44,148 nucleotides of DNA from an uncultured Bacilli bacterium (GTDB lineage Bacteria; Bacillota_I; Bacilli_A; RF39; UBA660), in NCBI GenBank assembly GCA_947626655.1, contig CANQTA010000006.1, forward strand, positions 1 to 44,148. The letters run 5' to 3'. Shown here in pieces: positions 31,409 through 43,721 of the stretch. A program made the translations under genes and the position numbers. Each line of letters starts with the position of its first letter. Positions within the stretch are counted from its first letter, which is position 1. The notes below the pieces were generated by a model. It was given only the letters and a program-made list of their open reading frames with translations. It had not been told where the DNA came from and made no database searches.

Positions 31409-31679
31409 TATAATCCTTTAAATGTCTTAAAATATCTTTTTGCAAATTATAAGAATTTAAGTACATTTCACTTCTATCAACATCTAAAAAACTTAATACA
31501 TAAGTTAAAATTGCTGTATGAATTAGAGAATCATCTTCTTCTATTTTTTTAGAAGATATACCAACTGCCGATAAATCTTTTTTACAAGAATCAACATAGT
31601 TACCTATTATTAAATCAAACTCACTATGATTAATTCCTTGAATTTTTTTTAATTCATCTAAAAAATTATTTTTTTCCAT
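31392..31679 (-). CDS. Head-tail connector (gp6-like)
   Basis: DSLIHTAILTYVLSFLDVD; synteny. Confidence 0.65.
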   Translation of the reverse strand: MEKNNFLDELKKIQGINHSEFDLIIGNYVDSCKKDLSAVGISSKKIEEDDSLIHTAILTYVLSFLDVDRSEMYLNSYNLQKDILRHLKDYIEDGI

Positions 31680-32944
31680 TATTTTTTAGAATCTGTTTCA
31701 TCATCAGTTTTAGCAGTTGTTGTTTTAGCAGTTGTTGTTTTAGCAGTTGTTGCTACTTTAACAGAACTTTTTAAAGCTACTGCTTCAGATGCGGCTGGTT
31801 TTGTTAACAATGTGAATGCTTTGTCAGCAACTAAACCTAAGCCAATATATTGTCTGCCTAGAATTTCTACCAAATCTTCTTTTTTACGAGAAAGTTCATC
31901 AAATTTAAAATCTACTACATCTTGACCATTAGGGAAGTTTGCTAAAGAACCATAACCCAAGTCACCAACGATAGCATATACAGCATCTTCTTCAGCTGTA
32001 CTATAAGCAGGCAATGAATTATTAAATTTAACATTTAATCCTTCAAATACATCCACACCGTAACCATTAGCATATTGTGCTTTCTTAAAATCTGCATACG
32101 TTAATTTATTCATAATAATTACTGGATTAGTAGCTTCATCACTTAAATTGGCAACTGCTACTGCAATTGTTACTGTTTCAGGTGCCATTTTTACTTTATT
32201 AGCACTAACAGATGTTGTTGTTGCTACTGCAGGTAATTTAGTTATTGACGTAATTAATTGGTCAGCGGCTTTCTTAGTGATTTTATAAGTTAATTCTCTA
32301 TAAATATATTCTAAGAATTTTTCACCTCTTAAATCCATTACTTCATCAGAAATAGCAATCCATTTCTTAATGTTATCAGGAGTAATTGTAACAATTCCTT
32401 CTTTTAATTCTTCTTCTGCTACTGCTTCTTTTCCTTCTTTATGAATTACAGCATCACTACCAGAAATTTCAAATTGAATTTTAATATTACCTTTTAATTC
32501 TGCCTTTGAAACTAAAGACATAATATCATTTTTATCCCATGCAGTTTTTACAACGTCATAAACGAAGTCAGGCACTGCAATAGAACCATTTTCTTCAGCA
32601 TTTGTAGTTAATAATGCTCTTACTTCTTCTTCTTTGCCTGTTTTAATATACTCAGCATATGCATTAATGTATTCTGCTGAATTTCTTATTTCTTTTAATT
32701 TATCAGTATCCATCTTTCTTTCCTCCTTAACTACTGATTTTTTAATTGATGGGTCATTATTTTCTAACCCTTTTGCTATAACAGCTCTTGATTGAATATC
32801 TTTAAGTTGTTGCTCTTCTGCATTTAATTCTTTTACTTCTTGAATTAAATTTCTTACTTCTTGAACATCTTTAAGATTCTCAATTTGAGATTTTATAGCT
32901 TCTTTTCTCGTTTGAATTTCATTTAGTCTATCCATAATAGACAC
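31679..32944 (-). CDS. HK97-type major capsid protein with fused N-terminal delta/scaffold coiled coil
   Basis: N-terminal coiled coil followed by the capsid fold region; synteny with protease and portal. Confidence 0.9.
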   Translation of the reverse strand: MSIMDRLNEIQTRKEAIKSQIENLKDVQEVRNLIQEVKELNAEEQQLKDIQSRAVIAKGLENNDPSIKKSVVKEERKMDTDKLKEIRNSAEYINAYAEYIKTGKEEEVRALLTTNAEENGSIAVPDFVYDVVKTAWDKNDIMSLVSKAELKGNIKIQFEISGSDAVIHKEGKEAVAEEELKEGIVTITPDNIKKWIAISDEVMDLRGEKFLEYIYRELTYKITKKAADQLITSITKLPAVATTTSVSANKVKMAPETVTIAVAVANLSDEATNPVIIMNKLTYADFKKAQYANGYGVDVFEGLNVKFNNSLPAYSTAEEDAVYAIVGDLGYGSLANFPNGQDVVDFKFDELSRKKEDLVEILGRQYIGLGLVADKAFTLLTKPAASEAVALKSSVKVATTAKTTTAKTTTAKTDDETDSKK

Positions 32945-32996
32945 CTCCTTTTTTCTTTTAATTCTTTAATGACTATTAAAAGTTAAAGTCAATTAT

Positions 32997-33105
32997 TGCT
33001 ATCCAGCATTTATTAAAGCTTCTATATGCATTAAAAAAAGACTTATCCAAGTCTCTTCAAATACATAAATACAAAAGTTATCCAACTTTTATACTTTCAA
33101 AGTAT
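32997..33105 (-). promoter_or_regulatory. Capsid-gene leader with three GGAT-loop hairpins plus one further hairpin
   Basis: Minus strand AAAAGTT-GGAT-AACTTTT, AGACTT-GGAT-AAGTCT(TTTTT), TGCT-GGAT-AGCA, preceded by ATACTTTGAAAGTAT. Confidence 0.6.
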
Positions 33106-33743
33106 TAACCTAATAATTTTTTTAATTCCTCTATGGCTGTATTAAATTCTTCTCTTTTTTCTTCTTCAGCTTCTCTTAATTCTTTTACTCTATCTTCAGT
33201 CTTTTTTAAGGACCTAGCATATAAAGAAGTTGAATCATAAAACGGTTGGTCCACTACTGAAACATCATACAATTTTTCAATGTCCGTAATTGTATAAGTG
33301 TTGGTATCGTAATCATAATTTTCAGCTCTTTTGGTAAAACAAAAACTCATCTTATCAATGAGCTTACTTTTAATCGCTTCATATACTGACCTATGTTCTT
33401 CAATATTTGGATTTAATGTTGCAACCATTTTCAAGCCTATTTCATCTTGTTTTAATTTTAATGAATTGTTTCTAGTTCTGGCTAAAACAATAAATGAATC
33501 ATTATGATTATATCTTAAGACAACATCTGTCATATCAGTATTATCTAACGCTCTAATATCTATGACCTCTGTAAACCCATGTGTTGCTGGGCTATTAAAG
33601 ATTATTGGATAACCTTCTATGATCATAGATTTTTCATCTTCACCCTCAACCGCTCTCATATGTAAATCAACATTTAAACATCTTACTTCTCTTTCTTCCA
33701 CTTTACTCACCTCCTCCTGATTGATAATTATCAGCAATATCAC
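33105..33743 (-). CDS. HK97-type prohead protease
   Basis: MRAVEGEDEKSMIIEGYPIIFNSPA...VLARTRNNSLKLKQDEIGLKM...DKMSFCF. Confidence 0.9.
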   Translation of the reverse strand: MILLIIINQEEVSKVEEREVRCLNVDLHMRAVEGEDEKSMIIEGYPIIFNSPATHGFTEVIDIRALDNTDMTDVVLRYNHNDSFIVLARTRNNSLKLKQDEIGLKMVATLNPNIEEHRSVYEAIKSKLIDKMSFCFTKRAENYDYDTNTYTITDIEKLYDVSVVDQPFYDSTSLYARSLKKTEDRVKELREAEEEKREEFNTAIEELKKLLG

Positions 33744-37595: not shown

Positions 37596-37757
37596 CTAGC
37601 CAAATACAGCATCAATATCTTTTTGTGTTGCTTTAGTTTCTTTTTCTTCTACTGTTGATAAAAGAATATTTATTAAAGACACAAAAGACATTGTTTTCAT
37701 ATCTTCTATTGTTATATTTAGTCTTTTTGCTAAGGCGACTACTTCATATTCATCCAT
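37596..37757 (-). CDS. Tail assembly chaperone T-like extension (ATG-initiated form or part of a G-T frameshift product)
   Basis: Open frame overlaps the 3' end of the G-like ORF in the -2/+1 frame; ...DYKKLSNSSNSSAPMDEYEVVALAKRLNITIEDMKTMSFVSLINILLSTVEEKETKATQKDIDAVFG. Confidence 0.65.
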   Translation of the reverse strand: MDEYEVVALAKRLNITIEDMKTMSFVSLINILLSTVEEKETKATQKDIDAVFG

Positions 37758-37776
37758 AGGAGCAGAAGAATTGGAA

Positions 37777-38133
37777 CTATTGCTTAATTTCTTGTAATCG
37801 CCCTGATAAGGGTGTACATCCTAAAAGAATAACTTCTTCAATCCAAGCGGTATCAGAATATAAATCATCAATAGATTTTAAAAAACTTTTATAATCTTGG
37901 ACTTGATTTGGATCGGCTTCTTGTATCATCGCAAAAGATATTTTTAAAACTAATTCTGTAACTTTATCTAATTCAGATAATTCAATATTATCCATTGCTT
38001 TGGCTTTTAATTTTATAAGATCTTGTAAATCATTTAATAAACTCCTACCAGTTAGGTCCTTATATGCAAACTGTGTATATGCGCTTGATTGCATTGTATA
38101 ATCTTTGCCACTTATTTTAATGATTTTTTTCAT
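37777..38133 (-). CDS. Tail tube assembly chaperone (gpG-like)
   Basis: MKKIIKISGKDYTMQSSAYTQFAYKDLTGRSLLNDL...DSDTAWIEEVILLG-type sequence; SD GGAAGGAG; start at 38133 rather than 38169. Confidence 0.75.
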   Translation of the reverse strand: MKKIIKISGKDYTMQSSAYTQFAYKDLTGRSLLNDLQDLIKLKAKAMDNIELSELDKVTELVLKISFAMIQEADPNQVQDYKSFLKSIDDLYSDTAWIEEVILLGCTPLSGRLQEIKQ

Positions 38134-38156
38134 TGTACTCCTTCCATCAAAATAAA

Positions 38157-38185
38157 AATGATGCCTCAATTAGCATCATTCATAT
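38157..38185 (-). terminator. Leader terminator just downstream of the late promoter
   Basis: AATGATGC-TAATTGAG-GCATCATTTTTATTTT on the minus strand. Confidence 0.7.
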
Positions 38186-43178: not shown

Positions 43179-43721
43179 CTAATTTTGTAAAAATTTTAAT
43201 GCTTCTTCTTTTTCTGGTGGATTAAAAATATTATTAATTAATTTTCTTTCCCACTCTAAACTTGTTGCTTTTTTTACAGTTTTTAAAAAATTGCTATAAA
43301 AATTTTCAAAATTTTCCTCAGAATACTGATACAATTCTTCTTTTATTTGATCATTAAAATCCCAATTATATTTTTTGCTTTTTCTTTCTATATAAAGAAT
43401 TGATGAGCATCTATCCTCATGTTTATGGCAATCATCGAGATTATTAAATGGCTTACGGCAATTCCTACAAAAATAAGTAATTTTAGTAAAATCTATTTTT
43501 TGCTTAATCTTTGGTAATTTAAATATTATTACTTCTAATTGTGGTGGTCTATTTGTATATTTGTCATTAGCCAGGCAATGTTTTAAACTAAGCTTTACAT
43601 CTTCAAATGAGTATTGTGATAATTCATTTGCCCAGTAACTAATCATATCAGCATTAAAATCATAAGTTGGATAACTTGCTTTTAAGAATCTAAATAATTC
43701 TTCTATTTCTTCCTTAGTCAC
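43179..43721 (-). CDS. Putative phage helicase loader (G39P-like N-terminus) with zinc-finger-like insert
   Basis: LFRFLKASYPTYDFNADMISYWANELSQYSFEDVKLSLKHCLANDKYTNRPP; CRNCRKPFNNLDDCHKHEDRC; next to the DnaD-like gene. Confidence 0.5.
   Translation of the reverse strand: MTKEEIEELFRFLKASYPTYDFNADMISYWANELSQYSFEDVKLSLKHCLANDKYTNRPPQLEVIIFKLPKIKQKIDFTKITYFCRNCRKPFNNLDDCHKHEDRCSSILYIERKSKKYNWDFNDQIKEELYQYSEENFENFYSNFLKTVKKATSLEWERKLINNIFNPPEKEEALKFLQN

Follow-up and report, generated by a model that had tools for sequence, protein, structure and literature searches.

What is the function of the RNA that separates the protease gene from the major capsid protein (MCP) gene in this prophage, where three hairpins present one and the same loop? 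The window, i.e. the whole stretch of 44,148 nt analysed here, is an HK97-type prophage. It has a GC content of 27% and belongs to a small, AT-rich host genome (G000) of 1.48 Mb. The minus strand carries, in this order, the genes for TerL, portal and S78 protease, the leader, and the genes for the MCP, a connector and tail proteins. The prohead serine protease gene (Peptidase_S78, Pfam PF04586, E=4e-31) spans positions 33105..33743 (-), with its stop codon at 33107-33105. The MCP gene (PF05065, E=1.6e-12; phrog_10) spans 31679..32935 (-) and starts with an ATG at 32935-32933, 169 nt from the protease stop. A Shine-Dalgarno motif of the MCP gene, GGAGG, was read from the sequence at 32944..32948 (-).

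Three GGAU-loop hairpins in the capsid leader

The original prediction described three minus-strand hairpins with a U-GGAU-A loop in this gap, and all three were found exactly where it had placed them. The first, at 33073..33090 (-), is AAAAGTT-GGAT-AACTTTT, with a stem of 7 bp that extends to 13 bp if G.U pairs are counted (33096-33067) and a loop with an unpaired probability of 1.0. The second, at 33039..33054 (-), is AGACTT-GGAT-AAGTCT, with 6 bp, or 10 bp counting G.U pairs (33058-33035), and runs into seven T, the U7 tract at 33033..33039 (-). The third (H3), at 32997..33008 (-), is TGCT-GGAT-AGCA, with 4 bp. No other minus-strand hairpin in the 44-kb window has a GGAT loop and at least four perfect pairs. 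An array of three hairpins sharing a 4–6-nt loop inside 110 nt occurs once in the window and in 0 of 20 Markov shuffles, and the leader folds better than shuffled sequences (fold z-score -3.2). The 6-mer TGGATA by itself is not enriched (31 occurrences versus 30.9 expected); the unusual feature is its clustering within stems. The originally noted span of 32997-33105 holds the hairpins and leaves out the 3' part of the element, in which another helix, H4, and an AU-rich strand extend to ~32964.

On the plus strand, a lone extra hairpin, AAGTT-GGAT-AACTT, lies at 43664-43677, opposite an ORF at 43179-43721 (-) that matches the G39P helicase-loader inhibitor. This hairpin is probably due to chance.

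Distribution of the leader element

Relatives were found by MCP search of genomes from the host family and order. Prophage G372 carries three hairpins with the loop GGAG at the same place, and a blind scan of all fetched loci for hairpins with a shared loop detected an array before the MCP gene also in G242, G197, G524 and G519. From these five carriers, with the window left out, a covariance model (R1) was built; it matched the window with 47.4 bits (E=5e-6 over 127 kb) and gave a single confident hit in each carrier genome, located at the MCP gene. It also revealed a previously unseen carrier, G529, again with the match in the protease–MCP gap. The leader element is accordingly found in seven prophages, each from a different host genus (the window, G372, G242, G197, G524, G519 and G529), always at the same place before the MCP gene.

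R1 searches over 388 family, 385 order and 296 class genomes retrieved no further convincing carrier, and the element is presumably missing from most genomes because the prophage is missing there. A search of a wider genome-contig collection with the window MCP found no relative. In 413 kb of DNA from carriers and related phages the covariance model had no second confident copy, and clustered GGAK hairpins are confined to the MCP leader. Rfam gave no match for the window at the gathering threshold and no credible match for six carrier loci up to E=5. Several candidates were discarded as chance matches: the low-scoring hits of the model in G186 and G400 correspond to terminator-like hairpins without GGA loops, that in G156 to a partial resemblance without an array, and DNA matches in Oenococcus, Listeria and Enterococcus phages and in MT835495 are short.

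No such element is present in the named phages that come closest by TerL, portal, protease or MCP. In the sequence-near phages that lack it (prophages G485 and G332, Phage nd12, phiEG37K, Caldibacillus CBP1, Terrisporobacter ph2, C. difficile CD2301 and Lacticaseibacillus P2.4), the protease and MCP genes overlap or sit from a few to ~35 nt apart. This arrangement, and the position of the element exactly between low-copy and high-copy genes, would suit an RNA processing or stability element that keeps a scarce upstream mRNA apart from a stable and abundant one for the MCP, without any specific regulator. A host RNase would cut at the junction and the hairpins would shield the new 5' end; processed capsid leaders are known from T7-like phages. 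However, neither a protective nor a processing stem requires three copies of one loop sequence or a U-to-G change made in concert, and we regard this explanation as unlikely.

A pair of ORFs common to the carriers lies elsewhere in the prophage. In the window it occupies 37596-38169 (-) and comprises a 130-aa ORF (phrog_709, of unknown function) and, behind it in a different frame, an ORF of 53 aa; in the counterpart on contig C1 of G524 (32658-33195) the two ORFs overlap. A Pfam search gave no match for the pair, which we guess to resemble a frameshifted tail-assembly-chaperone pair. However, it sits upstream of the HNH and terminase genes, and no tail-assembly-chaperone-like gene was found between the tail tube gene and the next large tail gene.

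Consensus architecture

In the consensus, a helix P1 begins ~2 nt past the protease stop (2 nt in the window) and closes a three-way junction that encloses two GGA-loop hairpins, one of which is followed by a U-tract. The linker UUUAAUAAA, the third GGA hairpin, with 4–5 bp (NGCU/AGCN) across carriers, and H4 follow 3' of P1. In the window, the first and second GGAU-loop hairpins are the two inside P1, and their order relative to the U-tract is reversed with respect to the consensus; the second hairpin corresponds to H1 of the relatives. This hairpin is covarying helix 2, and the third is covarying helix 4. The P1 strands of the window were assigned as CUUU at 33099..33102 (-), by eye and at the same place as ACGAU/ACAAU of other carriers, and GAAG at 33019..33022 (-), one base ahead of the linker UUUAAUAAA as in the relatives. 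The resulting helix is short and weak (4 bp, one G.U), whereas P1 covaries in the other carriers. The alignment of carriers delimits a conserved AU linker, CUUUAAUAAA, at 33009..33018 (-), and H4 at 32970..32991 (-), which is covarying helix 5 and has 5 bp in the window between the arms UGACU (32991-32987) and AGUCA (32974-32970). The outer pair of H4 is U-A, G-C, A-U or G-U, depending on the carrier. Positions 33018-33012 of the linker can pair with 32970-32964, which would form a possible outer A-U helix, P5.

The conserved helices end upstream of the MCP Shine-Dalgarno motif, which lies outside the conserved pairing and has an unpaired probability of 0.47 in the window and 0.34-0.86 in the carriers. 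There is therefore no evident sign that the structure occludes the ribosome site directly. Two other roles for the loops were rejected: as mimics of the Shine-Dalgarno sequence, GGAG could pair with the anti-Shine-Dalgarno sequence and GGAU could not, and for loop–loop kissing inside the leader no AUCC complement was seen in that of the window.

The U-tract, U7-U8 after H1 in six of the seven carriers, raises the question of transcription termination, and the middle hairpin had originally been proposed as a possible terminator or processing site. Such a role is possible but not general: the tract is broken in G529, and a consensus scan calls no terminator in the window. An intrinsic terminator would combine a U-tract with a G+C-rich stem, and the stems here are A+U-rich. 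A weak intrinsic terminator or attenuator in which H1 and the U-tract cut transcription into the MCP gene, with the remainder incidental, would moreover leave two further conserved loops and H4 unaccounted for, and a terminator ahead of the most expressed gene is implausible without a regulator. We consider this explanation very improbable.

Attenuation by a leader peptide would make use of the same U-tract. An upstream ORF (uORF) starting 4-7 nt past the protease stop would be translated through H1 and H2 by terminating or re-initiating ribosomes, whose position would decide whether H1 and the U-tract form and cause pausing or termination, and thus the amount of MCP mRNA. An in-frame ATG with a 14–17-codon ORF is present in five of the seven carriers (G242, G197, G519, G372 and G524), where it spans the first two hairpins and encodes similar peptides (MRKELDGSFFVGGY, MMKKELESSFFVSIY, MNEEELESSFFVGGD, MRKHLERCFFVAGE and MIKMNLDKFFFLLVDTN; roughly M-x-K-E-L-E-S-S-F-F-V-G-G); the chance of such an ORF per matched shuffled leader is 0.07. 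However, the peptide likeness stems partly from conserved RNA bases, as the U-tract yields FF and the loop LE or LD. The uORF is missing in G529 and the window has only MYLKRLG, of a different form, which speaks against a general mechanism, and the third GGA hairpin, H4 and the parallel loop change would remain unexplained. Attenuation is therefore, in our estimate, improbable, though a serious candidate.

Covariation and loop constancy

In the alignment of the seven sequences (A5), 97.0% of cells are paired, compared with 37-52% with slid partners; both sides have changed in 16 of 25 pairs (6.3 +/- 1.6 in shuffles), and the covariation score is 0.646 versus 0.210 +/- 0.035 in shuffled alignments. 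As A5 was fitted to the model structure, these pair counts lean towards that structure. Compensatory changes are also directly visible in the sequences, as in the P1 strands AUUCC/GGAAU and the H1 strands AUCGCU/AGCGAU of G529 and in the pair changes of H4. On the sense strand of the seven carriers, wobbles amount to 16 G.U versus 1 A.C, an asymmetry indicating that selection acts on the sense RNA.

The loop U-GGA[U/G]-A is kept in 20 of 21 hairpins, one of them closed by U.G; only the second hairpin of G197 deviates, with a retained stem and the loop AUUU. The fourth loop base is uniform within each phage: all loops are GGAU in the window, G524, G519 and G529, and GGAG in G372, G242 and G197, save that AUUU loop. 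If loops were independent, the probability of this uniformity would be 1.2e-4, although the change between GGAU and GGAG may have been a single event in one clade, in which case uniformity carries little phylogenetic weight. It does not derive from recent duplication, since the stems differ among the three hairpins of a phage. The constant loop on differing stems that the original prediction reported in one leader is thus borne out by covarying stems across seven prophages; the comparison of homologous leaders that it proposed found both loop conservation and covariation. Covarying helices at a fixed position before a gene are one mark of a cis-regulatory structured RNA, which would also change the expression of the gene downstream.

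The best explanation for a constant loop and freely varying stems in three copies is a protein that binds them sequence-specifically, as we infer from the sequences. We therefore favour, with some reserve, the view that the leader is a new cis-regulatory RNA and probably a multivalent protein-binding operator that would set MCP expression; it would represent an RNA family outside Rfam. All three loops would be bound together by a single protein, probably a phage product passed on with the head module, and MCP expression would be adjusted in this way; the phage needs many more copies of the MCP than of the protease and portal, whose genes lie upstream. The most likely mode of action would be feedback by a free head protein, e.g. 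unassembled MCP acting through its conserved N-terminal region, in keeping with the autoregulation by a phage protein that the original prediction had named as an alternative: while the leader is bound, translation would drop or the MCP mRNA would be shorter-lived, until the head protein has been consumed by assembly. As the ribosome site is not evidently occluded, the effect may run through mRNA decay, the U-tract or upstream ribosome loading. Both the end of the helices upstream of the Shine-Dalgarno motif and the loss of the second loop in G197 count against an operator.

Exchange of the capsid core and loop type

Protein identities among the carriers are 67-87% for TerL, 60-84% for the portal and 51-85% for the protease, apart from G529, which shares 57-62% (portal) and 50-62% (protease) with the others. 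The MCP core, in contrast to the leader and the N-terminus, falls into three types that are mutually 23-32% identical: window and G372; G519 and G524, plus G529 at 52-55%; and G242 and G197. The N-terminal ~75 residues, a delta-like region, resemble one another in all of these phages and also in those without the RNA. The MCP is hence a mosaic by domain, with a kept N-terminal delta-like segment and three cores, between flanking head genes that are ~50-87% identical. In the window, a repeat, TTAKTTTAKTTTAKT, at the MCP C-terminus (~31.7 kb, minus strand) is missing in the relatives.

The core was swapped while the leader, the N-terminus and the other parts of the head module stayed similar; the leader was thus retained through core swaps. 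The loop type tracks the MCP N-terminus, protease and portal and not the core, as the window and G372 have a common core type and different loops; linkage alone could explain this tracking. An acidic character (net -2 to -16 over 75 aa) sets the N-terminal region apart from typical RNA-binding segments; this and the occurrence of the region in relatives without the RNA also count against the proposed operator.

Tentatively, and with more doubt than confidence, the leader might be the first RNA operator through which a tailed-phage capsid system of the HK97 fold senses its own head protein. Such an element with three loops would have changed its recognition base between G and U in all hairpins, along with the phage lineage, and would have outlived the core swap. 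To our knowledge, little is known about post-transcriptional tuning of capsid-protein amounts in tailed phages, and a literature search on capsid leader RNA in these phages found nothing relevant, an absence that is not proof. Three identical loops and a putative natural G/U specificity switch would permit a direct test of a head-protein binder and of its match to the lineage, and might provide an orthogonal RNA–protein pair.

Comparison with known systems

RNA phages have the textbook coat operator. In the MS2-type system, a fixed loop sits on a freely varying stem and the hairpin holds the replicase start codon. The capsid leader is alike in its capsid-related hairpins with a constant loop on varying stems and differs in that these are present in three copies and end upstream of the ribosome site. 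In HIV-1 psi, a GGAG tetraloop is recognised by the nucleocapsid (PMC7599994), which likewise brings together a capsid-related protein and this tetraloop. The likeness is of the loop only, as psi serves the packaging of a retroviral RNA genome and the carriers are phages with dsDNA genomes.

Csr/Rsm arrays of the RsmZ type also have multiple hairpins, each presenting GGA in its loop, and this repetition had led to the suggestion that the leader resembles a CsrA/RsmA target; a sponge is a variant of this explanation. That likeness did not hold. The absence of a visible csrA gene, noted originally for the window, extends to its host genome and to five other carrier genomes, in which CsrA (PF02599) was not found while controls did match (six assemblies, 74-96% complete). 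High-affinity CsrA sites consist of an ANGGAX hexaloop on a stem (PMC4005645), whereas in all 20 loops with GGA the second base ahead of this triplet is T, C or G and never A. With no CsrA found in the host assemblies, no A at -2, a U-A-closed tetraloop and a cis position, a CsrA/RsmA target is the least credible of the explanations considered.

The nearest documented precedent is the autogenous operator of the T4/RB69 DNA polymerase gp43, likewise a conserved-loop hairpin in a phage mRNA leader, which lies ~40 nt upstream of the start and whose loop is bound by the gene product (PMC3014915). That operator is a single hairpin with a UAAC loop before a polymerase gene, whereas the capsid leader comprises three hairpins with GGAU or GGAG loops and a putative binder.
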